In this document: positions 9,554 through 19,923 of the stretch, piece by piece
Layout of the letters: each line of letters starts with the position of its first letter
Numbering within the stretch: position 1 is the first letter of the stretch
Assembly (NCBI GenBank): GCA_944324695.1
Contig: CALUXH010000097.1
Location: 1 to 43,306 of the forward strand
Length of the DNA: 43,306 nucleotides
Origin: an uncultured Elusimicrobiales bacterium
Lineage (GTDB): Bacteria > Elusimicrobiota > Elusimicrobia > Elusimicrobiales > Elusimicrobiaceae
Direction: 5' to 3'
Translations under genes and position numbers: made by a program
Notes under the pieces: generated by a model
The model's input: the letters and a program-made list of their open reading frames with translations, nothing else
Database searches by the model: none
What the model was told of the DNA's origin: nothing

Positions 9554-9606
9554 GAAAATGGCGGTGCTTTTAGTTTCTCTAGCACTATGCTGAATATTTT
9601 TTTATC

Positions 9607-9866
9607 AAACAGGCAATAAACAGGCAAAAAATGGCACTTTTTTCTTTCCAAAGCGGTAGAAAAGCGGTTGAAAATGGCCAATTTCTCTTTTTGGCCGAAT
9701 CGGCAATGAAACGGTAAAAAATGACAATTTTTTCAAAGCGACGATAACGCGAGGAAAAATACTTTCAAGCAGGTGACAAACAGGCGAGAATTTACATTTT
9801 ATTCCCTGCTAAACAGGGAAAATACAGGGAAAAACAAGGAATTTATTTAAATTTTAAATGTTTTTT
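9607..9866. repeat. Array of five degenerate ~45-bp units with 11-bp-phased submotifs
   Basis: The gene-free stretch 9529-10044 contains five imperfect units starting near 9607, 9650, 9697, 9766 and 9811. Each begins with two submotifs of the type CRGGNNANAA spaced exactly 11 bp apart: 9610/9621, 9653/9664, 9701/9712, 9770/9781 and 9814/9825. Most then have a third (ATGGC or ATGAC) and a T-rich tail ending TTTTTTC. CAGGGAA recurs again near 9914 and 9936. One helical turn between submotifs suggests protein binding on one face of the DNA, not coding. The array sits at the left edge of the inferred island. Confidence 0.6.
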
Positions 9867-10011
9867 CGTACTAACACCCCATATAAATTCACTCAATTTC
9901 CTAAAATTCAAAACAGGGAACAAGTAATTCTTTGCAGGGAATCGATTAACGCCGTAACAGGACCTTAGTTACCACATGAGGCAAATGCACACACTAACAT
10001 AGGAAATAATG

Positions 10012-10040
10012 TATTATAGACATATATTACGTTAGGAGGT
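10012..10040 (+). promoter_or_regulatory. Putative promoter -10 and strong ribosome-binding site of the island operon
   Basis: TATTAT at 10012-10017 is a possible -10 box. AGGAGGT at 10034-10040 is a consensus ribosome-binding site 4 nt before ATG 10045. Confidence 0.5.
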
Positions 10041-10044
10041 AGTT

Positions 10045-10416
10045 ATGAAGGCAATTAAGACGTTATTTTGGATAAGTGGGTTGTACGATTTTGTACTAGG
10101 TGTGGCCTTTTTGGCATTACCCGTGTGTTTGTTTGATTTATTTACGATTACACCGCCTAATCACTGGGGTTATGTAACCTTTGCGGCTTCTATGCTTACT
10201 ATCTTTGGTATTATGTTTTTTCAAGTGGCCAAAGACCCGAGGGCAAACCGCAACCTCATTCCCTATGGTATCCTACTAAAAATTACATATTGTGGTACCG
10301 TATTCGGGTTTTACTTCTTCGCTTCGCTTCCCGTATTATGGGTAGTGTTTGGCGTGTTTGATTTCCTGTTTTTGTTGGCTTTTGTGTGGGCTTATCAAAA
10401 GTTAGGTAAAATCTAA
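10045..10416 (+). CDS. Small four-helix membrane protein of unknown function
   Basis: This 123-residue, very hydrophobic protein has four predicted membrane segments (about residues 5-30, 42-62, 73-93, 96-117). The short polar loop between helices 2 and 3 contains KDPRANRN. Size and layout recall DoxX-like or other small integral membrane proteins, but no signature allows a name. It has the best ribosome-binding site of the operon and is separated from the UbiA gene by a hairpin that looks like a terminator. It may thus be expressed at a higher level than the genes downstream. Function unknown; association with a lipid-type pathway is by position only. Confidence 0.75.
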   Translation: MKAIKTLFWISGLYDFVLGVAFLALPVCLFDLFTITPPNHWGYVTFAASMLTIFGIMFFQVAKDPRANRNLIPYGILLKITYCGTVFGFYFFASLPVLWVVFGVFDFLFLLAFVWAYQKLGKI

Positions 10417-10430
10417 ATTCTGCATGTACC

Positions 10431-10464
10431 GAAGTACCAATCGTTTCGGTTGGTACTTCTTTTT
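10431..10464 (+). terminator. Terminator/attenuator hairpin abutting the UbiA start codon
   Basis: Arms GAAGTACCAATCG (10431-10443) and CGGTTGGTACTTC (10447-10459) pair over 13 bp (one G-T), loop TTT, followed by TTTTT. The ATG at 10465 comes directly after the last T. Confidence 0.75.
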
Positions 10465-11397
10465 ATGAAAATACTATCCTTTCTGTACTATTACTTAAAA
10501 TCCATGCGGTTGTACTACGGCTTTGTTACGTTAAGTGCCGGATGGGTAGGGATAGTATTGTATCCGGGCATAGTTAGCCGGGGCAGTTATGTTTTGCTAT
10601 CAGTTATTTTGTTTAGTTGTTGGGGTGTCAATCAAATTATCAATGACTACTTCAACTTGGAAGAAGACAAAATCAATGCTCCGGGGCGTCCGATGGCTTG
10701 CGGAAAGTTAAATGTACGCGGGGCCATGACCATTAGTGTAGGTTGTATAATCGGTATTTTAGTTTATTCTATGTGGAAAAATCCTATTGCGTGTGTACCG
10801 ATTGCGGCAGGCGTGCTGGCCAACATTTACTATTCTAAGACGAAAAATATTCTACTCTTTGCGTTTAGTATTTCTTGCTGTGCGTGGTTCGCTTATGGGG
10901 TATTAGGCGGTCGCGTGGACGCGTTTTTCACGGCAAATCATGGACAAAATGCTATTCTCTTTTTGGGCTTACTTGGGTGCAATGCACTGATGACCTTTTT
11001 TACCTATTTCAAAGATGTGCAAGGGGACAAGTCCGTCGGGAAACGGACCCCGCAAGTCATTTTCGGAAACGAACCCATGCGCAAGGCCGGGCTGGTGTTG
11101 GGCTTGCTGCCCTTGGGAGTTGCCGTATTGGTTTATTTGTGCACCGGTTGGCATGTTGCTTTGGGGGTATGGTTAGCCGGAAGTATTTTAAGTGCATTAA
11201 CGGGATTCTTGTTCTACAGACCGCACTCCATACAAAATGATTACTTTTACTTAAAGTACAACTTTGCCGCTTGCTGCGCGTTGCAAGCCGGTTTAGTGGC
11301 ATGGGTCAATCCGCTGGCCGGCAGCTGGTTGGCATTAGGTTGTGCGTTGGGGGTACTTAGTATTTTTAGCGGGGGATATACACATGCAGACGAGTAA
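10465..11397 (+). CDS. UbiA family prenyltransferase
   Basis: This 310-residue integral membrane enzyme of the UbiA superfamily transfers a polyprenyl chain from its diphosphate to an acceptor (aromatic ring, glycerol phosphate or other). The two Asp-rich motifs that bind Mg-diphosphate are visible: NDYFNLEED at residues 60-68 and YFKDVQGDKSVGKRT at about 181-195. Seven to nine hydrophobic segments surround them. ATG 10465 follows the T run of a hairpin without a ribosome-binding site; a TTG at 10450 in frame is a less likely start. It overlaps the radical SAM gene by 14 nt. The acceptor cannot be read from sequence; no chorismate or quinone genes are nearby, so a lipid-type acceptor is plausible (inference). 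Confidence 0.88.
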   Translation: MKILSFLYYYLKSMRLYYGFVTLSAGWVGIVLYPGIVSRGSYVLLSVILFSCWGVNQIINDYFNLEEDKINAPGRPMACGKLNVRGAMTISVGCIIGILVYSMWKNPIACVPIAAGVLANIYYSKTKNILLFAFSISCCAWFAYGVLGGRVDAFFTANHGQNAILFLGLLGCNALMTFFTYFKDVQGDKSVGKRTPQVIFGNEPMRKAGLVLGLLPLGVAVLVYLCTGWHVALGVWLAGSILSALTGFLFYRPHSIQNDYFYLKYNFAACCALQAGLVAWVNPLAGSWLALGCALGVLSIFSGGYTHADE

Positions 11398-12640
11398 AAC
11401 AGGCCTTTCCAAAACCGTTATCTACGTACGTATTGCGTTGCATGTAGTGTGGAAATACCGCCGCCATTTAAGTATTCGCTTTTTATACCGGGCTGCTCGG
11501 CTGCTTTGGGCATTCTATGATAACAAAATCATTGTGCGTAACCATACCTACAAATTGCACCTCTATTTACCTGCGTATCCTACGCCCGCTTTCTTTAAGG
11601 CCGTGGAAGGGAAATTGCTTTACCGTCCGCCTAAACCGATTTCTATGGTGTGGGGAATTACAAAAGCATGTTCGTACAAGTGTCCGCACTGTTACCAACG
11701 GTTAGATAAGGGGACCGATTTGCCCGCCGACAAACTAAAAGAAACGGTACATGCTATTTCCAAAGCCGGGGTGTCTTTCTTAAACATAGAAGGCGGAGAC
11801 GCATTTTTGATGTTTGATAAACTGTGCACGTTGTTAGATGCAACAACCTCCGATATGGAAGTATGGATAAACACCACAGGTGCACACGTTACGCGGGAAA
11901 AGTTAGCCATTCTCAAAGAGAAAAACGTGTATGGGTTTATGGTATCTTTGCATAGCGCCGATGCCAAGGTGCACGACGATTTTGTAGGTATTCCCGGTGC
12001 CTTTAAACAAGCGAAAGATACGCTTGCCCTATGTAGCAAAATGGGGTTTGGAACGGCTATCAACACGGTGCTTCAATATAAAGATATTCAAAACCATACG
12101 TTAGAGCAAATTATGGATATTGCGAACCGGTTACACTGCGGTTTTGTGCAACTGATTCACCCTAAGCGGGCTGGAAAGTGGCTTTCCAACACCGCCTTAT
12201 ACGAGCAAGACAAAGACCTTATCGCATACGTTAAACATGCTTATTACCAATACAACAAAAAACCGCAACTTCCCGCTTTGCCGGCCCAAGCCGAAGAGGA
12301 AGATGTAAAACGCTTTGGATGTACGGCAGGCGGAGTGGACCGTTTTTACATTGGGGCCAGCGGAGAAGTGCAACCGTGCGAGTTCCTAAACATTTCGTTT
12401 GGTAACCTAACCCAGGAACCCTTTGAAGTGATTTTCAAGCGGATGCGGGCCGCGTTCCCTACGCCGTTTGTGGAATGGGCGTGTGAAAAACGCGCACCGC
12501 AGATTTATGCATTTATGCAGCAACATAACATTTCACAAACCCCGCTCCCTTACGAATACACGCGTGAATTAGTGGCCGGGTGGACGGACGGGACACCTAC
12601 TCCCATTTATAAGAAAATAGGCATCTATGAACAAAACTAG
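11384..12640 (+). CDS. Radical SAM enzyme with SPASM-like C-terminus
   Basis: This 418-residue protein binds a [4Fe-4S] cluster through Cys96, Cys100 and Cys103 (CSYKCPHC, the CxxxCxxC motif) and should cleave S-adenosylmethionine to start radical chemistry. Next are a GGD block (NIEGGDAF), which is the SAM-binding GGE equivalent, and a beta/alpha barrel. The C-terminal region, with FGCTAGGVD and VQPCEFLNISFGN, resembles the shortened auxiliary-cluster (SPASM/twitch) part of MoaA-like enzymes. The first 80 residues are basic and hydrophobic and could lie on the membrane. The start at ATG 11384 has GGGGGA upstream and overlaps the UbiA gene. The substrate is unknown; the product of the neighbouring prenyltransferase or kinase is a reasonable guess. 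Confidence 0.87.
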   Translation: MQTSKTGLSKTVIYVRIALHVVWKYRRHLSIRFLYRAARLLWAFYDNKIIVRNHTYKLHLYLPAYPTPAFFKAVEGKLLYRPPKPISMVWGITKACSYKCPHCYQRLDKGTDLPADKLKETVHAISKAGVSFLNIEGGDAFLMFDKLCTLLDATTSDMEVWINTTGAHVTREKLAILKEKNVYGFMVSLHSADAKVHDDFVGIPGAFKQAKDTLALCSKMGFGTAINTVLQYKDIQNHTLEQIMDIANRLHCGFVQLIHPKRAGKWLSNTALYEQDKDLIAYVKHAYYQYNKKPQLPALPAQAEEEDVKRFGCTAGGVDRFYIGASGEVQPCEFLNISFGNLTQEPFEVIFKRMRAAFPTPFVEWACEKRAPQIYAFMQQHNISQTPLPYEYTRELVAGWTDGTPTPIYKKIGIYEQN

Positions 12641-13484
12641 CACGATGTTGTTTCTAAACCCTAGTTCGAAAAGTAAAAAAGGCCAACGCAACTGGCCTTG
12701 CTTTCGTAAGGCCGGTTTTGGGGAAGTGATTTCCCAAGGGGCCGAAGATTTGGTCACCCAAGTAGCGCAAAGTTCATGCGAAACGGCGGTGTCCGTCGGC
12801 GGAGATGGAACAATCAACCTGGTTATCAACGGCATTATGCGTTCCGCTACGCCTAAGAAACTGAGCGTACTTTATAGTGGAACCAGCCCGGATTTTTGCC
12901 GCTTTCATCATATTTCCATTAAGCCACAAGCCGCTTTAGAACAACTGTTAAATGGAACCTCGCACACCATAGATATTTGTCAAATTACCTATGCTAACGG
13001 AAATACGTGTTATTTTGCGTCCAGTTGTAACATTGGCCTAGGGGCGGAGATTGCCCGTACGTCCAACAAAGTGCGTAAATATATGGGAGATTTTTGTGGC
13101 ACGTTACTGGCGGCCTTGAAAGCGTTTGTAAGTGTGAAACCTTTTGCAGCAACCGTAACCCTAGACGGACAAACAAAAGCTTTCCCACGGGTGCGGCATA
13201 TTGCCGTGCTTAAAAATAAGTTTATTGCTTCGGGACTGTATTTAGATGTTCCCGCTAAACCGGATGACGGTCTACTACACGTGGTGGTGCTACCGAAACT
13301 TACATTGCGGGGATTGCTTAACATTTATAAAGGTAAAATTCCGCCCGGTGCGCAAGTGTTTACTTGTAAAGAGGTATACGTCCATACCGAGCCCACGCAG
13401 TACACAGAATTTGACGGGGACCCACAACCTGCAGGAGACGTGTATATTGTTTGTTTGCATAAACGCTTGGAGTTACTAAAATGA
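12627..13484 (+). CDS. Diacylglycerol/sphingosine kinase-like protein (DAGK catalytic fold)
   Basis: This 285-residue protein has the two-domain fold of the lipid kinase family (YegS, DgkB, LCB5, ceramide kinases), which phosphorylates a lipid hydroxyl with ATP. The nucleotide-binding GGDGTIN lies at about residues 58-64, as expected. The second signature, normally GTGND, reads SGTSPDF here, so the Asn is replaced by Pro and the pocket differs. The C-terminal half keeps the beta-sandwich pattern, with DGLLHVVVL and FDGDPQPAGD, which contains the conserved D-G-E/D region. It overlaps both neighbours (14 nt and 4 nt). In sphingolipid-making bacteria a similar protein sits beside serine palmitoyltransferase; here such an enzyme is encoded three genes downstream. 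Confidence 0.83.
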   Translation: MNKTSTMLFLNPSSKSKKGQRNWPCFRKAGFGEVISQGAEDLVTQVAQSSCETAVSVGGDGTINLVINGIMRSATPKKLSVLYSGTSPDFCRFHHISIKPQAALEQLLNGTSHTIDICQITYANGNTCYFASSCNIGLGAEIARTSNKVRKYMGDFCGTLLAALKAFVSVKPFAATVTLDGQTKAFPRVRHIAVLKNKFIASGLYLDVPAKPDDGLLHVVVLPKLTLRGLLNIYKGKIPPGAQVFTCKEVYVHTEPTQYTEFDGDPQPAGDVYIVCLHKRLELLK

Positions 13485-14335
13485 ACGAGTATGCTCTAAT
13501 TCGCCACTTATTTGGCGACGTAAAAGATTTGTTTAAGACCGATGCCCAACTTATAGAAGTGGCCGGGCAAACATGGGGTATTACGTGTGATAGTTTTTCA
13601 TTGGAAGAAGATTTATTCACGGCGGATGACCCGCACGTGCTGGGCCAAAATTTAGTAACGGCTACGTTGGCGGACTTGATTGCTACCGGGTGTAAACCTG
13701 CTTTTTACGAGCACACACTTACACTTTCTAAAACCTCATCCGAAACGTGGGTGCGGGATTTCGCATCGGGTATTTTGCACGCACTTACGCAGGCCGGATG
13801 CCAACTTGTCGGTGGGGATATGGGGCAGGCTGATGCATTTGCCTATACTGGGATTGCGCTCGGTCCTCAACAGCACAATGTGTCCCGCGTAATCCCCAAT
13901 ATGCCACAAAGGTTATACGTTTCCGGCGAACTCGGAGACGTGAACGAAAGTGTATTAAAGCGTTTGCCTACTCCCTTGTTGGAGCCACGCGTGTTGCCCG
14001 CGAGTGCCTTAGCCGCCATAGATACCAGTAGTGGTTTTATGGATGCATTGTGGCAACTGCACGAAGTAAGTCCACACGTGAAGATAGAAGTGGTGAATCC
14101 TCCTGTGAAAGATATCCGTTTTTTATTTGGGGCAGCTGGAGAATATGAACTGCTCTTTACCAGCGCGGAGCCCGTGCCGGGGGCTATTTGCATTGGCACC
14201 GTTACGCCGGGGGAAACAGGCGTGTACGTAAACGGTAAAGAAATCAAAGTGTCGCCGCCGGACCCGCGTTCTTTTACCTCGTTGCCAGATTATATTGCTT
14301 CGGTGGAGAAACAAGTACATGAACTATTTGGATAA
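13481..14335 (+). CDS. AIR synthase-related protein (ThiL/PurM fold), divergent
   Basis: This 284-residue protein matches the PurM/ThiL/SelD/HypE superfamily of ATP-dependent enzymes. Landmarks are DSFSLEEDLF (ThiL has D-x-L-V-E-G-x-H-F there), the ADLIATGCKP block (A-D-L-x-A-M-G-A-x-P in ThiL), and QLVGGDMGQAD, which fits the GGD nucleotide loop. The usual N-terminal GDD motif that holds Mg-ATP in ThiL is not seen: that position reads VAGQTWGITCD. It is therefore unlikely to be a standard thiamine-monophosphate kinase, and no thiamine genes are near. It may phosphorylate or activate an intermediate of this operon's pathway, or may be non-catalytic (inference). It overlaps the kinase gene by 4 nt and the next gene by 17 nt. 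Confidence 0.72.
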   Translation: MNEYALIRHLFGDVKDLFKTDAQLIEVAGQTWGITCDSFSLEEDLFTADDPHVLGQNLVTATLADLIATGCKPAFYEHTLTLSKTSSETWVRDFASGILHALTQAGCQLVGGDMGQADAFAYTGIALGPQQHNVSRVIPNMPQRLYVSGELGDVNESVLKRLPTPLLEPRVLPASALAAIDTSSGFMDALWQLHEVSPHVKIEVVNPPVKDIRFLFGAAGEYELLFTSAEPVPGAICIGTVTPGETGVYVNGKEIKVSPPDPRSFTSLPDYIASVEKQVHELFG

Positions 14336-15431
14336 AATTATCCGCAGTGCAACCGTGGAGAATATGGCAGCCACAAACGGCGTGCCCAACGTGCAAGCAT
14401 TTGTCAATTTGTACCGGGCTATTTCCGCACGGACGATTATTACCGGGTTTGTGTATGTGTCCGAAAACGGACGTGCCATGCAACCCTTGCAAGCCGGAAT
14501 AGTCAACCAAACGCAAGCGGACGCGTGGGCCAATGTGCGGCAGGCTCTGCCGGATAAACAACTCATTATGCAACTGGCGCACGTGGGCCGTCAAACTACC
14601 CGATCCGGTGCGGTGGGGGCGTCTAACATTAAGTGTATGTATTGCAAAGCTCCGGTGCGCGTTTTAACCAAGGCTGAAATTGAAGAAATCGTGCAGGACT
14701 TTGCAGAGGCCGCGCTGCGTGCTCAAAAGGCCGGATTTGACGGTGTGCAAATCCATGCTGCGCACGGATATCTAATCCATCAATTTTTATCCCCTTACAC
14801 CAACAACCGTACGGACGAGTACAAAGACAGGCCCCTTTTGTTAGAGCTGGTTTTGAAGGCCGTTCGGGCCGCCTGTCCCGCTCCGTTTATCGTGTGGGTG
14901 AAACTCAGCCACGGCGATGACCGCGGGCTCACGATTACAGATACGTTAGCCACTGTTAAACGCATTGAAACGTTGTGCGACGGCATAGAAATCAGTTACG
15001 GAACGATGGAATATGCGCTTAACATTATCCGCGGAGCCATTCCTATAGATACGGCTTTTGAAGTAAACCCCTTGTTTAACAAGTATTCGCCGCTGATAGA
15101 ACGGTTGTGGAAACGGTTTGTGTTTCCCTTTTACAAACGTCGTTTCAAACTGTTTACACCTAACTATAATGTGCAAGCTGCGTTGGAAATTAAAAAGCAA
15201 ACTTCGCTACCTGTATTTGTAACGGGCGGTATCCGCACGCAGCAGGATATAGACACTATTTTAAATAGCGGGATTGATAAAGTATCGCTTTGCCGCCCGT
15301 TCATCAAAGAACCGGATTTGCTGCACAAATTAACGGGCAACTGGAAGTCCGGTTGCGTAAACTGTAATCTTTGTACAATATACTGTGATAGTGCGCAGTC
15401 CATCCGTTGCCACTTGGGAGAAAAGAAATGA
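14319..15431 (+). CDS. Old yellow enzyme family reductase (2,4-dienoyl-CoA reductase-like, FMN domain only)
   Basis: This 370-residue TIM-barrel flavoprotein reduces activated C=C bonds. Family marks are QLAHVGRQ (about residues 85-92), the catalytic loop HAAHGYLIHQFLSP near residue 145-158 followed by NNRTDEY, and the FMN-phosphate region FVTGGIRT. The usual GGS after RTDxY is replaced by KDR. Near the C-terminus five cysteines (GCVNCNLC, then IYC and IRC) resemble the Fe-S cluster site of the larger 2-enoate and dienoyl-CoA reductases. The protein ends there, without the FAD/NADPH half, so another protein may supply electrons. In this operon it could reduce a prenyl or enoyl double bond (inference). 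ATG 14319 lies inside the preceding gene, with GGTGGAG upstream. Confidence 0.87.
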   Translation: MNYLDKIIRSATVENMAATNGVPNVQAFVNLYRAISARTIITGFVYVSENGRAMQPLQAGIVNQTQADAWANVRQALPDKQLIMQLAHVGRQTTRSGAVGASNIKCMYCKAPVRVLTKAEIEEIVQDFAEAALRAQKAGFDGVQIHAAHGYLIHQFLSPYTNNRTDEYKDRPLLLELVLKAVRAACPAPFIVWVKLSHGDDRGLTITDTLATVKRIETLCDGIEISYGTMEYALNIIRGAIPIDTAFEVNPLFNKYSPLIERLWKRFVFPFYKRRFKLFTPNYNVQAALEIKKQTSLPVFVTGGIRTQQDIDTILNSGIDKVSLCRPFIKEPDLLHKLTGNWKSGCVNCNLCTIYCDSAQSIRCHLGEKK

Positions 15432-16663
15432 AATTTGAAGATTTTACGTCCTCTGAGCAGGCGGATTTGTTTGAGAAAGCCACGCGCTTTTTAACCCTGC
15501 TTAATAGCACCAAAGATACCGGCGGTGAGGCGCTGGGTATTCAACTCATGCAAGCCGTGCGCCCCACCTCGTGTATGAAGGAAAAAGACGGTACGGTGGC
15601 TCCGTATTTGATGTTAGGGTCTAATTCGTATTTGAATTTAACCACGCATCCGCAAGTGGTGGAAGGGGCCCGCAAAGCACTAGAAAAATACGGCTATGGT
15701 ATGGGGGCCGTTTCGCTGTATGGCGGCATTACCGATTTGCACCGCGAATTGGAAGAACGCATTGCCGCTTTTTATCACACCGAAGATGCCGTTTTATTCC
15801 CCAGCGGGTACGGTACGAATATTGGTACTATCTCCGCCCTGTGCGGCCCCGGGGACGTGATTGTAAACGATAGCGCGAACCACGCTTCTATTTTTGACGG
15901 GTGCCGGTTGTCCGGTGCCGATATTAAAATCTACCCGCACGGCAAAATCAAATACTTAGAACAAGTGCTTGCCAAAATCCCGGCAAACGTAAAAGGCCGA
16001 CTGATTATTACAGATGGTGTGTTTTCCATGCATGGAGACATGGCAAAATTAGATGAAATTTACGCGCTTGCCCAAAAGTACAGAGCGCGGCTCATGGTAG
16101 ATGATGCACATGGACTGGGTATTGTCGGACCGACGGGTCGCGGAACGGCGGAGCACTTTAATCTATTGGGCAAAATTGACTTAAATGTAGGCATGCTTAG
16201 TAAAGTGCCGGGGGCGATTGGCGGCTATTGCGCCACCACCAAAGAAGTGGCTGCGTATCTGCGCATTTATGCACGTACCTACTTTTTCTCTACGGCTATT
16301 CCTGCCCCGGTAGTGGGCGGCCTTATAGAAGTATTTAAATTGTTAGCCGCCGACCAAGCCGGGCGCAAAGAACTTTGGCAAAACATTACGTATTTGAAAA
16401 CGGAACTACAAAAGCGCGGGTTTAACACGGGAGAAAGTGAGTCGGGCATTGTGCCTGTCATTGTAGGGGACGAGCCGAAACTGATTCGCTTTACCAACGA
16501 CTTGCGTGTTCACGGTGTGTATGCCAATATTGTTACGTATCCGGCGGTGCGGCGTAAAGAATGCCGCGTGCGCTTGTGCGTGATGAAAGATTTAACAAAA
16601 CAAGATTTAGACAAAGCGCTCTGCGTTATTACTGAGCAGGGAAAGAAACATGGCATCATCTAA
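15428..16663 (+). CDS. Alpha-oxoamine synthase (serine palmitoyltransferase / AONS / KBL family)
   Basis: This 411-residue PLP enzyme, fold type I, condenses an amino acid with an acyl-CoA with loss of CO2 to give an alpha-amino ketone. Seen: LGSNSYLNL near the N-terminus, NHASIFDGCRLSGA, the PLP-binding DDAHGLGIVGPTGRG, and the Schiff-base lysine in GMLSKVPGAIGGY. In most relatives that stretch reads TxSKAxGxxGG, so Val-Pro here is a small change. It could be a serine palmitoyltransferase, 8-amino-7-oxononanoate synthase or 2-amino-3-ketobutyrate ligase. No biotin or threonine genes are near, and an SDR and a lipid-kinase-like gene are. I therefore favour a long-chain amino-ketone (sphingoid-like) product, not proven. 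It overlaps the OYE gene by 4 nt with GGGAG upstream. Confidence 0.85.
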   Translation: MKFEDFTSSEQADLFEKATRFLTLLNSTKDTGGEALGIQLMQAVRPTSCMKEKDGTVAPYLMLGSNSYLNLTTHPQVVEGARKALEKYGYGMGAVSLYGGITDLHRELEERIAAFYHTEDAVLFPSGYGTNIGTISALCGPGDVIVNDSANHASIFDGCRLSGADIKIYPHGKIKYLEQVLAKIPANVKGRLIITDGVFSMHGDMAKLDEIYALAQKYRARLMVDDAHGLGIVGPTGRGTAEHFNLLGKIDLNVGMLSKVPGAIGGYCATTKEVAAYLRIYARTYFFSTAIPAPVVGGLIEVFKLLAADQAGRKELWQNITYLKTELQKRGFNTGESESGIVPVIVGDEPKLIRFTNDLRVHGVYANIVTYPAVRRKECRVRLCVMKDLTKQDLDKALCVITEQGKKHGII

Positions 16664-17615
16664 TACGGTTTTAATTACCGGCGCGGGTGGCTTTATCGGG
16701 CATCATATTGTGCGCGAATTTGCCAAACATCAGTGGACGGTGTATGCACTTATCCACCGCCAACTGCCCGAAGAACTGAAACAACTGCCCAACGTGCATC
16801 TTATTAAGGGAAGTGTTACTGCCCCGGACATTATTAGTCAAATTACCACTGCCATAGGCGGGCGGCCTGAGGTAGTCGTGCATGCGGCGGGATTGGCCTC
16901 CGACGTGGGAGCAGACCGTATTTACAAAGCCCTCAACTTTGAGAGTGTTAAAACATTTTCTTCACTGCCCACTCGTAAACTTGTTTATATTTCATCTTCC
17001 GACGTGTACGGCATTAAAGATTTTCATGGGGAAGATGAAGATACACTACCTTTTGAAACCAAACCGTTAAGTCCCTATCCCAAATACAAGATAGAAAGCG
17101 AGAAGTGGTTGCGTGCCAACTTGCCTACGGACAAATATGTAATTTTACGCCCGGCCGCGGTGTATGGGGAAGGAGATAAAAGCATTGGTATTCGCATGGT
17201 AAACTTCTTGGCTTCTTCACCCGTTATTATCCATTTTGGCAAATGGAAAGGACAAAACCGTTGGCCGGCCGCGGCGGTGGAAAAGGTAGCGCAGGTAGCG
17301 TATGTAGTGGCTTGTTGCACGGACTTTGACGGGCAGGCCATTAACATTATTGACCCCGAACATATCACGCTAGATGCTTTTTACCGCAAAGTGGCGGCTG
17401 AACACTTCCCAAATAAGAAGTTTCCTTCTATTACCTTGCCGTTTTGGGTAGGCAAACTACTGGGGCGTATTTCTACCACACTTTCTAATTTGTTAGGCCG
17501 CACAGAGCAACTTTTTGACCCGTCTTTTTATGCGGTGCATCATGTAGCCAGTAATTTGGATTTAAGTTGTGCCCGTCAACAAAAGGCCCTGGAAGTATAC
17601 AAGAAGTTAACTTGA
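16650..17615 (+). CDS. NAD(P)-dependent extended SDR (epimerase/dehydratase or ketone reductase)
   Basis: This 321-residue extended short-chain dehydrogenase has the Rossmann motif GAGGFIGHH (GxxGxxG) at residues 11-19. It also has HAAG, then SSSDVYG, and the catalytic YPKYK (YxxxK) at about residues 148-152, followed by RPAAVYGEGD. Such proteins act on sugar nucleotides or, in several lipid pathways, reduce a beta-keto group. The gene overlaps the alpha-oxoamine synthase by 14 nt, so the two are probably made together. By analogy with bacterial sphingolipid loci, where an SDR of this type (CerR) reduces the keto-sphingoid, it may reduce the amino-ketone (inference). It is the last gene of the operon. 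A 16-bp palindrome follows the stop codon. Confidence 0.85.
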   Translation: MASSNTVLITGAGGFIGHHIVREFAKHQWTVYALIHRQLPEELKQLPNVHLIKGSVTAPDIISQITTAIGGRPEVVVHAAGLASDVGADRIYKALNFESVKTFSSLPTRKLVYISSSDVYGIKDFHGEDEDTLPFETKPLSPYPKYKIESEKWLRANLPTDKYVILRPAAVYGEGDKSIGIRMVNFLASSPVIIHFGKWKGQNRWPAAAVEKVAQVAYVVACCTDFDGQAINIIDPEHITLDAFYRKVAAEHFPNKKFPSITLPFWVGKLLGRISTTLSNLLGRTEQLFDPSFYAVHHVASNLDLSCARQQKALEVYKKLT

Positions 17616-17631
17616 CTTCTAGGCCTAGAAG
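17616..17631. repeat. Perfect 16-bp palindrome
   Basis: CTTCTAGGCCTAGAAG directly follows the stop codon of the SDR gene and lies 26 nt before the DUF2924 start. It has no T tail, so it is not a terminator. It could be an operator for the recombinase module or a recombination-related site; nothing in the sequence decides. Confidence 0.6.
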
Positions 17632-17657
17632 AAGCGGTAATGTGTATAGGAAGAAAC

Positions 17658-18041
17658 ATGCAAAACTATACACAATTAACCGCACGGGAATTGCGCCTAA
17701 AATGGACCGAAGTCATAGGCCGGCCTATGCCACCAATTGGGCGAAGTTTAGTTATTAAGTACCTGTTATGGTACGAACAAGCCAAGCGTGAGAAGATTTC
17801 TCCACTTGGCTTTTTTCATGAAGTGGCCCAATCCGTTAAAAGTATTGATAAACGCCCCAAAGCCACATTGGAAGTTGGTTCTAAAATGGTCCGGTCCTAT
17901 CAGGGCGCTAAATACGAAGTAGAAATCGTTTCACAAGGGTATCTATACAAGAAGACACTCTACAAGAGTCTGTCCGGTGTAGCAAAGGCCATTACAGGTA
18001 AGAGTTGGAACGGAAATGTATTCTTTGGAGTGAAGAAATGA
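17658..18041 (+). CDS. DUF2924 domain protein, partner of the recombinase
   Basis: This 127-residue basic protein matches DUF2924 along its length. It has an N-terminal ELRLKWTEVIGRPMPP helix block, then a strand-rich half with YQGAKYEVEIVSQGYLY, LSGVAKAITGKSWNG and a final NVFFGV. The family has no proven function; it is typically encoded immediately upstream of a large serine recombinase in phages and integrated elements, as here. The ATG at 17658 has AGGAAG 5 nt upstream and is preferred over the in-frame ATG at 17640. The stop overlaps the recombinase start (ATGA), so the two are translationally coupled. A role as a recombination accessory or DNA-binding factor is inferred from this linkage only. 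Confidence 0.88.
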   Translation: MQNYTQLTARELRLKWTEVIGRPMPPIGRSLVIKYLLWYEQAKREKISPLGFFHEVAQSVKSIDKRPKATLEVGSKMVRSYQGAKYEVEIVSQGYLYKKTLYKSLSGVAKAITGKSWNGNVFFGVKK

Positions 18042-19639
18042 GTGATAAGAAAATACGTTGTGCTATCTATACCCGCAAATCAACCGAAGAAGGATTAGAA
18101 CAAGAGTTTAATAGTTTGCAAGCCCAACGGGAAGCGTGTGAGGCCTACATTAAAAGCCAAAAGCACGAACATTGGCAGTTGTTACCAACGGAGTATGATG
18201 ATGGTGGGTATTCGGGTGGCAATATGGAACGCCCGGCGCTAAAAAAGCTTTTATTGGATGTCCAAAACGGACTTATAGATATTATCGTAGTATACAAGAT
18301 AGACCGCTTAACCCGCAGTCTAATGGATTTTAGCAAGATTGTAGAAGTGTTAGATAAACATAATGCCTCATTTGTATCTATAACGCAGCATTTTAATACC
18401 ACTACCAGTATGGGGAGATTGACGCTTAATATGCTACTCTCATTTGCACAATTTGAGCGTGAAGTAACCGGAGAACGTATCCGTGATAAAATCAGCGCTA
18501 GTAAGAAAAAGGGGATGTGGATGGGTGGCAAACCGCCATTAGGATATTACCGCAAGGATAAGAAGATATATCCGGATGAAGAAAAAGTAGGACTTGTTAA
18601 TAATATATTCAAAAAGTATGTAGAACTTAAAAGCACCACGCTTGTTAAAGATTGGCTCAAAGAACAGGGGCAAAAAATATCCGTAGGCAATTTGAATTGT
18701 ATTTTGCGTAATAAAGCATATATAGGCATGGTTGGCCATAAAGGCACATGGTATCAGGGGGAACATCAGGGAATAATCTCACAAGAACTATTTGAACAAG
18801 TCCAAACAGTGATGGCGGATAACCGTATCAACCGCCAACATTATGACCCTAGCAAAAGCCTTTTATCGGGTAAATTATATGACGATAAAGACAATGCTAT
18901 GAGCCCGAGCTGGAGTACAGGCAGTGGCGGTAAGAAATATCGCTATTATGTAAGCCAAGCTATTATCCACAAGGAGCCAGGCAAAGTGGGGAAAATTAGT
19001 AAGGTATCGCTCCCCAAATTGGAGCAGTTTATAGATAATTGGTTTAGTGTATTTTTGAAAGACAAGACAAAAATATATTCGTATATCCAACAATTTGGAG
19101 TAAGCAAGCAAAAGGAAATCATCAAACGGCTACCGTCATATCCGATAACGCGGGATGTAGAAAAAGAACTGATCAAACGCGTGAAATTAAATCCAAGCAA
19201 GATAGCAGTCACGCTATATCAAGAACAAATAACTGAACTATTAAATGCCATTTGTGAAAATCGTGAAATGCACCGACTTAAACCCGAAGAATTAAAACAA
19301 GAAAACACCTATACAGAGCCATACCATATCGGTACAATAGCCAACGGAGAAAAGATAATTGTAGGTCACTTTGTAGAACCAAGAAAAAGACCCAATACTG
19401 AACTTATCAAAATCCTAAACCAATCCTATACTTGGCATCAAGATATATTAGACGGTAAGACTACCCAAGAAATAGCAAATAGAGAAAAGGTATGCGTACA
19501 GTATGTCCGCAGGATCCTTAATTTAAGTTTTTTGTCGCCTAAAATCGTGCGAGCTGTCCTAAACGGTACCCAACCCGCAGACTGCACCCTCAAAAAATTA
19601 CTCTCTATCAAAACTTCAAATTGGCAAGAACAAGAGTAA
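18038..19639 (+). CDS. Large serine recombinase (site-specific integrase/resolvase)
   Basis: This 533-residue protein has the N-terminal resolvase domain. The catalytic Ser lies in YTRKSTEEG (near residue 14), followed by SLQAQREAC, the arginine segment YKIDRLTRS, and FEREVTGERIRDK leading into the long helix. A recombinase domain follows (about residues 155-290, with GGKPPLGY and LRNKAYIGMV) and then a C-terminal part of 240 residues with SWSTGSGGKKYRYYV. No CxxC zinc ribbon is apparent, unlike many integrases of this type. It probably integrates or excises the surrounding element. The stop codon lies 180 nt from the tRNA-Asp gene. Base composition is more AT rich by eye than the flanking chromosomal genes. 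Confidence 0.92.
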   Translation: MSDKKIRCAIYTRKSTEEGLEQEFNSLQAQREACEAYIKSQKHEHWQLLPTEYDDGGYSGGNMERPALKKLLLDVQNGLIDIIVVYKIDRLTRSLMDFSKIVEVLDKHNASFVSITQHFNTTTSMGRLTLNMLLSFAQFEREVTGERIRDKISASKKKGMWMGGKPPLGYYRKDKKIYPDEEKVGLVNNIFKKYVELKSTTLVKDWLKEQGQKISVGNLNCILRNKAYIGMVGHKGTWYQGEHQGIISQELFEQVQTVMADNRINRQHYDPSKSLLSGKLYDDKDNAMSPSWSTGSGGKKYRYYVSQAIIHKEPGKVGKISKVSLPKLEQFIDNWFSVFLKDKTKIYSYIQQFGVSKQKEIIKRLPSYPITRDVEKELIKRVKLNPSKIAVTLYQEQITELLNAICENREMHRLKPEELKQENTYTEPYHIGTIANGEKIIVGHFVEPRKRPNTELIKILNQSYTWHQDILDGKTTQEIANREKVCVQYVRRILNLSFLSPKIVRAVLNGTQPADCTLKKLLSIKTSNWQEQE

Positions 19640-19686
19640 ATCTTCTATAAATAATCGCAAGTGCGCCACTTCCCACTTACTCTTGT
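19630..19686. repeat. Nested inverted repeats after the recombinase stop
   Basis: Outer arms ACAAGAGTAA (19630-19639, including the stop codon) and TTACTCTTGT (19677-19686) pair perfectly. Inside is AAGTG-CGC-CACTT (19659-19671). There is no T tail on either strand. It may be a weak terminator, an mRNA-stabilising structure or part of the attachment site. Confidence 0.5.
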
Positions 19687-19756
19687 CAGCATAAAAAGAG
19701 AATATTCACAGAAAAGCCGGAAAACTCGCCAAAATTTGCATGCTATCCGTGGTTTA

Positions 19757-19796
19757 CAAAAAAATCCCCGTCGGGAGTTAATCCTAACGGGGATTT
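19757..19796 (-). terminator. Terminator of tRNA-Asp
   Basis: Read on the minus strand, AAATCCCCGT and ACGGGGATTT pair around a 15-nt loop, followed by a run of T. It starts 26 nt after the 3' end of the tRNA gene. Confidence 0.8.
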
Positions 19797-19821
19797 ATGC
19801 TAACAATTCAAAACTAAAATA

Positions 19822-19897
19822 CGGAGTCGACGGGATTCGAACCCGCGGTCTCTGCCTTGACAGGGCAGCGTGTTAGACCAGGCTACACCACGACTCC
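19822..19897 (-). tRNA. tRNA-Asp (anticodon GTC)
   Basis: The minus strand folds as a cloverleaf. The acceptor stem is GGAGTCG/CGACTCC with discriminator G. The D stem is GTGT/ACAC. The anticodon stem is CTGCC/GGCAG around loop CTGTCAA, giving anticodon GTC. The T arm is GCGGG-TTCGAAT-CCCGT. CCA is not encoded. Its 3' end faces the inferred island, the usual side for integration at a tRNA gene, but no copy of the 3' end was seen at the other boundary. Confidence 0.95.
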
Positions 19898-19923
19898 AAC
19901 GGCTCAAATTCTTTCGTACTAAT

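Follow-up and report, generated by a model that had tools for sequence, protein, structure and literature searches.

Bacterial sphingolipid synthesis is encoded in ceramide operons of the type spt-acpR-cerR-aasR with cerS, as in Caulobacter (CC_1162-1165/1154) and E. coli B (ECB_RS15055-15075). In E. coli B, acpR and spt are neighbours (PMC9386255), and YghO serves as N-acyltransferase in the route to ceramide predicted there. Archaeal-type ether lipid synthesis employs digeranylgeranylglyceryl phosphate (DGGGP) synthase, in which changes in the first aspartate motif left geranylgeranyl diphosphate (GGPP) binding nearly intact, but impaired the binding of the phosphorylated acceptor (PMC9385802). 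We describe here an operon of 7.2 kb from a gut bacterium, an uncultured member of the Elusimicrobiales (assembly GCA_944324695.1, contig CALUXH010000097.1; the 43,306 nucleotides analysed are called the window below), which encodes seven enzymes, some of them with relatives in one or the other of these systems. The individual families are known. The operon reads as a variant of the sphingoid-type lipid operons of bacteria, and the chance that it represents a new lipid class is fair. We consider the chance that it makes a sphingoid-type envelope lipid not yet described to be about even.

Gene content and conservation of the operon

The seven enzyme genes lie on the forward strand, with successive overlaps of 14, 14, 4, 17, 4 and 14 nt. 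They encode, in this order, a UbiA-superfamily membrane transferase (10465-11397; Pfam UbiA 3.7e-18, 66.1 bits at a cut-off of 34.2), a radical S-adenosylmethionine (SAM) protein with a short SPASM region (11384-12640; Radical_SAM 55 bits, SPASM 22 bits), a YegS/DAGK-type lipid (or sphingoid) kinase with an intact GGDGT motif (12627-13484; DAGK_cat 63 bits, YegS_C 37 bits), a ThiL-like ATP-dependent kinase with phosphomonoester kinase fold (13481-14335; AIRS 53 bits), a flavoprotein of the old-yellow-enzyme (OYE) type (14319-15431; Oxidored_FMN 129 bits), an alpha-oxoamine synthase (AONS; 15428-16663; Aminotran_1_2 172 bits), and an extended short-chain dehydrogenase/reductase (SDR) of the epimerase/3beta-hydroxysteroid dehydrogenase type, a putative ketone reductase in which YxxxK is present (16650-17615; Epimerase 85 bits). 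All Pfam assignments exceeded the gathering scores, and NCBIfam agreed on the families. Coordinates and families thus confirm the preliminary description of seven enzyme genes overlapping by 4-17 nt, as does the four-cysteine Fe-S motif C-x2-C-x3-C-x7-C at the C-terminal end of the OYE, which had been noted as a Cys cluster. The protein described as AIR-synthase-like does belong to the AIRS family and can be specified as a ThiL homologue, while the tightly overlapping eight-gene operon proposed earlier holds for the seven enzymes, but not for a preceding membrane protein gene, which is set apart by a hairpin.

The genes of this set occur together in three different orders across about ten lineages of bacteria, at identities of roughly 20-69%, a recurrence well above chance. 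A scan of 85,000 species based on the radical SAM protein yielded 18 loci, and all named matches were metagenome-assembled genomes (MAGs), labelled Elusimicrobia, Phycisphaerae, Lentisphaerae, Victivallales, Armatimonadetes, Bacteroidetes, Gastranaerophilales, Bacteriovoracaceae, Oligoflexia, Fibrobacteres, Delongbacteria and Zoogloeaceae. Within the genus Elusimicrobium the operon is sporadic (3/49 genomes sampled), and in the phylum it was present in 5 of 340 genomes, the window's own genome not counted. Further sampling detected it in 4/340 genomes in the phylum of locus L042, in 5/168 in the phylum of L044 (one of them weak) and in 1/151 in the family of L046. The pattern scan was strict, so that all these counts are lower bounds, and single MAG labels may be wrong. 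The neighbourhood check suggested in the preliminary description thus revealed co-occurrence of the genes in other genomes, often in the same order, and did not refute it. Its remark that the combination was not known to it from a described pathway also stands: a search of open-access full texts, a body that leaves most subscription journals outside, turned up no relevant paper on a pathway with this gene combination.

In the window type (type A; Elusimicrobiota, Gastranaerophilales and other MAGs), the order is UbiA-rSAM-DAGK-ThiL-OYE-AONS-SDR (rSAM, radical SAM protein), with no OYE gene in L036 or L048 and a truncated one in L050; in L048 the SDR gene lies 3 kb away, and L035 ends within the AONS gene. 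Bdellovibrionota (type B) have the order UbiA-ACP-AONS-SDR-rSAM-DAGK-ThiL-OYE-MMPL, including an acyl carrier protein (ACP); this version is whole in L146 and split over two contigs of one genome in L041 and L135. Type C, found in Fibrobacterota and a Delongbacteria relative (L043), reads UbiA-OYE-(ACP)-AONS-DAGK-ThiL-KAS-SDR-rSAM and includes a ketosynthase (KAS); OYE comes last in L042. In all three orders DAGK and ThiL follow each other directly, as no other pair does, in those operons that have both genes (with a small gap in L047).

Distances between operons were correlated among the radical SAM, DAGK, ThiL, AONS and SDR proteins (Mantel r 0.79-0.93, 0/2000 permutations), which argues that the set travels as a unit; the correlation of UbiA with the other genes was weaker (Mantel r 0.31-0.65). 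In sequence, the window copy shares more with the Gastranaerophilales copy (46-69% identity) than with the same-order copies L037 and L038 (36-62%), indicating horizontal transfer.

Proposed pathway and competing explanations

The AONS may link the operon to sphingolipid synthesis. Its nearest solved proteins are Kbl/BioF- and serine palmitoyltransferase (SPT)-type enzymes, and the AONS proteins of types A and B form a clade of their own (support 95/93), sister to SPT (87/89) and apart from Kbl and BioF; the window AONS lies under the NCBIfam SPT cut-offs (327/640 bits). A housekeeping function as SPT, Kbl or BioF was rejected, because this clade is distinct and searches of the host genome revealed another SPT, which scores 505 bits with the CFB-type model, and a separate Kbl. 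The host SPT gene adjoins a gene for a GNAT protein 35.5% identical to YghO of E. coli B (contig C82; L003:340-2685, G000), which points to ceramide synthesis in Elusimicrobium and to an operon that is additional to this apparent ordinary ceramide route. The start of the host SPT gene was also seen on contig C32 (L004), perhaps an assembly duplicate.

The closest solved structure to the UbiA homologue is DGGGP synthase (1.7e-16), followed by chlorophyll synthase. The second aspartate motif (KDxxGDxxxGxxT; FKDxxGD) is kept in all members of the family, whereas the family alignment gives the first as NDxx[G/N/T]xxED instead of NDxxDxxxD in all members covering it: the position matching Asp66 of DGGGP synthase is Gly, Asn or Thr in every one, so that an Asp that would bind metal is missing. 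As the motif-1 changes in DGGGP synthase affect binding of the acceptor and hardly that of GGPP, the simplest reading by analogy is that this UbiA may have an altered acceptor. The use of a prenyl donor would follow from membership of the family.

From these observations we infer substrates, order of steps, product and export as follows. The AONS would condense an amino acid, most likely serine, with a long-chain acyl thioester to an alpha-amino ketone, and the SDR would reduce the ketone; both steps are modelled on established sphingolipid logic. The YegS/DAGK kinase would phosphorylate a hydroxyl and the ThiL-like kinase could then add a second phosphate onto the first, a two-kinase step proposed because the DAGK-ThiL pair is constant and because of ThiL chemistry, which is the phosphorylation of a phosphomonoester. 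UbiA may attach a diphosphate-activated hydrophobic chain, most likely a polyprenyl diphosphate, to the lipid, so that a lipid with two tails would arise with no acyltransferase involved. The radical SAM enzyme might introduce a modification of unspecified kind, and in hosts that have it, the Fe-S OYE might saturate an activated double bond. Transport of the product to the outer membrane, suggested by genes of type B only, might fall in the Bdellovibrionota relatives to an MMPL exporter, probably together with a LolA-like protein: in L135 the MMPL gene and the end of OYE share 4 nt, a 49%-identical MMPL gene lies 16 nt downstream of OYE in L146, and LolA_like genes are located near the operon in L135 and L147.

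Related operons lend support to a lipid product through their ketosynthase, MMPL exporter and LolA-like genes and through an ACP gene, which in operons of Bdellovibrionota, Delongbacteria and Oligoflexia lies directly 5' of AONS. Further support may be drawn from the position of AONS as sister to SPT, from DGGGP synthase as the nearest solved UbiA and from other lipid cargo at the integration site described below. The earlier suggestion of a membrane lipid or prenylated amino-lipid therefore gains ground in its lipid part, while the prenyl donor and the amino-lipid product remain at the level of inference. To the fuller picture we give somewhat less than an even chance: a new bacterial membrane lipid class, in which a sphingoid base or amino-ketone lipid receives a second hydrophobic chain through a UbiA with altered metal site after two-step phosphorylation, and which horizontal transfer has carried from phylum to phylum, with tRNA-Asp islands that also hold other lipid-remodelling cargo as its vehicle in Elusimicrobium.

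Several observations weigh against the proposed pathway. The amino-acid substrate of the AONS cannot be read from its sequence, and the type C (Fibrobacterota-type) AONS sits on a long branch with about 26% identity. The SDR resembles the CerR-type protein of E. coli B weakly (5e-9, 26.5% over 181 aa), no better than it resembles another SDR. Neither the window operon nor the related operons contain a ceramide synthase (N-acyltransferase), and the window operon also has no acyl-activating enzyme, no ACP and no transporter. Without the Asp66 equivalent, ordinary prenyl transfer by UbiA is not assured. To our knowledge, no known sphingolipid pathway includes a radical SAM enzyme, ThiL or OYE. 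Finally, all named matches are MAGs, and the product is a predicted one.

The two kinases also allow for a different, though unlikely, scheme, in which the lipid itself is the electrophile: DAGK and ThiL would turn a lipid alcohol into a diphosphate, which UbiA would use to lipidate a small acceptor, as in phytol salvage by phytol kinase, phytyl-phosphate kinase and homogentisate phytyltransferase. The consecutive DAGK and ThiL genes, the sole such pair in all three architectures, fit sequential kinases here as in the main scheme, UbiA motif 3 is intact, and the ThiL fold was found. The AlphaFold model of the ThiL-like protein (pLDDT 91.5) retrieved ThiL structures only among its top 15 Foldseek matches (AaThiL 8e-22, TM 0.75), and several conserved Asp residues are kept; in type A the ThiL motifs SDG and GEDYE are replaced by S[G/S]G and GEYE, respectively, while type C retains SDG. 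A housekeeping ThiL was rejected, because the protein scores under the curated ThiL cut-off (81/184 bits) and four other carrier genomes (G257, G304, G310 and G311) encode a true ThiL above the cut-off elsewhere; in the three Elusimicrobium carrier genomes a search for another ThiL found none. However, UbiA chemistry requires an allylic diphosphate, which the AONS/SDR product does not obviously supply, and the altered motif 1 corresponds to the part of DGGGP synthase that deals with the phosphorylated acceptor (PMC9385802).

The ketosynthase of type C bears on a further scheme, which we regard as rather improbable: a specialised metabolite instead of a structural lipid, such as an alkyl-pyrrole or prodiginine-like or other prenylated amino-ketone compound. 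Following RedL/RedK logic, KAS, ACP and AONS would join a beta-ketoacyl chain and an amino acid to a pyrrole, the SDR would reduce it, the two kinases would pyrophosphorylate a hydroxymethyl group and UbiA would couple the parts. KAS, ACP, AONS and SDR do occur in one operon in the Fibrobacterota/Delongbacteria-type clusters, and a mobile gene set with patchy occurrence is what specialised metabolism typically shows. But the KAS matches PigJ weakly (60-85 bits) and FabF far better (252-272 bits), and neither the window type nor the Bdellovibrionota type has it; no prodiginine-type adenylating, oxidase or condensing enzyme was seen in the operons, the window-type AONS is nearest to SPT, and the MMPL and LolA-like genes point to the outer membrane as destination.

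A lipid-soluble redox cofactor of quinone- or heme-like type, with an ALA (5-aminolevulinate)-synthase-like AONS, an AhbD/NirJ-like radical SAM enzyme and UbiA as cofactor prenyltransferase, is very improbable. The best NCBIfam matches of the radical SAM protein do include AhbD (99 bits) and NirJ2 (90 bits), and the second rank of chlorophyll synthase among solved UbiA structures would fit. Yet all radical SAM matches are far under their cut-offs (500 bits for AhbD and NirJ2), the AONS scores much lower to the ALA synthase model (230 bits) than to Kbl/SPT-type models, and none of the operons contains another tetrapyrrole or ring-forming enzyme. Independently of this scheme, the radical SAM protein has CxxxCxxC and Cys 313, 332 and 367 invariant in 18 homologues; it probably carries one auxiliary cluster, because these are three invariant Cys beyond the three of the SAM cluster. 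The OYE has no homologue in the genomes of L036, L039, L045 and L048, and its place in the pathway is, by this comparison, optional or dispensable.

Chance adjacency of general-metabolism enzymes, to which one might be led since every family is common, is refuted by recurrence, as the set is found again in about ten lineages and in three orders, with divergence that is correlated between genes and with overlapping reading frames; the probability of such chance adjacency is negligible.

Membrane protein gene and integrative element at tRNA-Asp

The operon is preceded on the same strand by a gene for a small membrane protein (10045-10416; 123 aa, four transmembrane segments), which has no known family or fold; a fold search with it returned noise only. 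The gene has its own ribosome-binding sequence AGGAGG and accompanies the operon in Elusimicrobium and Gastranaerophilales. A terminator- or attenuator-like hairpin on the forward strand (10431-10459; 13 pairs, -20 kcal/mol, followed by T5) lies directly 5' of the UbiA start codon and represents a possible attenuation site. Two other Elusimicrobium copies (L033 and L034) have equivalent hairpins of different sequence at the same place, so that structure is kept, not sequence; in the Gastranaerophilales copy (L049), where no hairpin was found, the membrane protein and UbiA genes overlap. The membrane protein thus belongs with the operon, and in Elusimicrobium its gene is probably a transcription unit that ends separately or is subject to attenuation. 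For the UbiA gene, no clear ribosome-binding site was seen.

Operon and membrane protein gene are located in an integrative element of 10,260 bp (9565-19824, forward strand), inserted at the 3' end of a tRNA-Asp(gtc) gene on the reverse strand (19821-19898, predicted with ARAGORN). Besides the operon, the element contains only a large serine recombinase gene with Resolvase and Recombinase domains (18038-19639, forward) and its partner gene for a DUF2924 protein (17640-18041, forward; Pfam DUF2924 4.3e-24); no transfer genes were seen in the element. The attachment site was defined by comparison with unoccupied sites of congeners, and a repeat search inside the window revealed no long att repeat. 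CGG stands at both junctions (9562-9564 and 19822-19824), with the left one reading CGG-TGCTTTTAGTTT (9562-9576) by this comparison. Joining the element ends gives AAACTAAAA-taCGGtgc-TTTTAGTTT, an attP-like palindrome with 9-bp arms that appears as expected for the attP of a serine recombinase.

Exact empty sites in two congeners (G001, L111; G020, L112), where position 9564 is joined straight to 19822, bear out the earlier suspicion that the operon beside a recombinase might be mobile; on this genomic comparison, the operon is cargo of a tRNA-Asp-specific integrative element. MAG contamination as source of the insertion was rejected, since the flanks are 83-87% identical to those of the congeners and the insertion thus belongs to this genus. 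The GC content of the element is 0.40-0.50, compared with up to 0.57 in the flanks. A plasmid collection searched with the radical SAM protein gave no match.

The recombinase/DUF2924 pair carries other cargo in G034, G039 and G041, beside the same tRNA where the contig shows the site. Element end sequences are repeated in congeners, with end-to-end junctions that represent tandem arrays, and the tRNA-Asp gene is an integration hot spot in the genus, with such arrays and varied cargo (L113-L117). It repeatedly holds lipid genes. An island at the same site in G043 (L113:4016-9514) encodes a CDP-alcohol phosphatidyltransferase, a hydrolase-methyltransferase fusion, a PAP2/dual-specificity phosphatase fusion and an LplT-like protein of the major facilitator superfamily (MFS). 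An array element in G032 (L116:7774-16289) holds an uncharacterised lipid-like operon with genes for MarR, Aas, a FabH-like ketosynthase, ATP-grasp, an SDR, a metallo-beta-lactamase fold protein and an AMP-ligase-like protein. The G039 copy of the studied operon (L034:4705-8638) is not at tRNA-Asp and has MarR and Aas genes upstream, the same pair that opens the different operon in G032. This Aas was considered as a pathway member and retained as a possible partner only, as it also occurs with MarR in the unrelated G032 operon.

Implications and comparison with known systems

If the lipid pathway proposed here is real, it would be an undescribed one found in ten or more very different and mostly uncultured lineages, and would mean that the genes of a membrane-lipid pathway can be exchanged as a mobile cassette within an animal-associated genus. 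The operon pairs bacterial sphingolipid chemistry with a UbiA best known from archaeal lipids, and would thus bear on the exchange of membrane types between lineages. The related operons offer a hypothesis on carrier protein, elongation and export, and the compact size of the operon makes it open to direct expression tests.

The element resembles tRNA-specific integrative elements with large serine recombinases (like staphylococcal cassette chromosomes, SCC, or integrative and mobilizable elements, IME) in its Resolvase/Recombinase-domain integrase, its palindromic attP-like site, its precise insertion at a tRNA 3' end and the tandem arrays, and differs from them in holding, besides the biosynthetic cargo, only DUF2924 and the recombinase, with no transfer genes seen.

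The pathway has partial parallels elsewhere. By analogy, phytol salvage to tocopherol (VTE5, VTE6, HPT) also places an alcohol kinase, a phosphate kinase and a UbiA enzyme in series, but its kinases are unrelated to those described here, and the operon has no aromatic acceptor pathway. The ebo operon, which likewise contains a UbiA-superfamily gene, is not known to include AONS, ThiL or DAGK. This enzyme, UbiA-297, is also encoded in a conserved operon across several taxa, but retains an Asp-rich motif like DXXDXXXD; the study describes the ebo cluster and was rejected as a precedent for our operon (PMC9235831).

With archaeal-type ether lipid synthesis the operon shares the nearest solved relative of its UbiA, DGGGP synthase, which links a prenyl diphosphate to a phosphorylated lipid hydroxyl; unlike that route, it contains no geranylgeranylglyceryl phosphate synthase, and the Asp66 equivalent is replaced. 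With the bacterial ceramide operon it has in common an SPT-type AONS, an SDR of the epimerase type and phosphorylation by a lipid kinase (in Caulobacter, the ceramide kinase CC_1160), and, in the related operons only, an ACP adjoining AONS. Here the AONS forms a separate clade, and the studied operon, which contains neither the CerS N-acyltransferase nor the acyl-AMP ligase, adds UbiA, radical SAM, the ThiL-like kinase and OYE.

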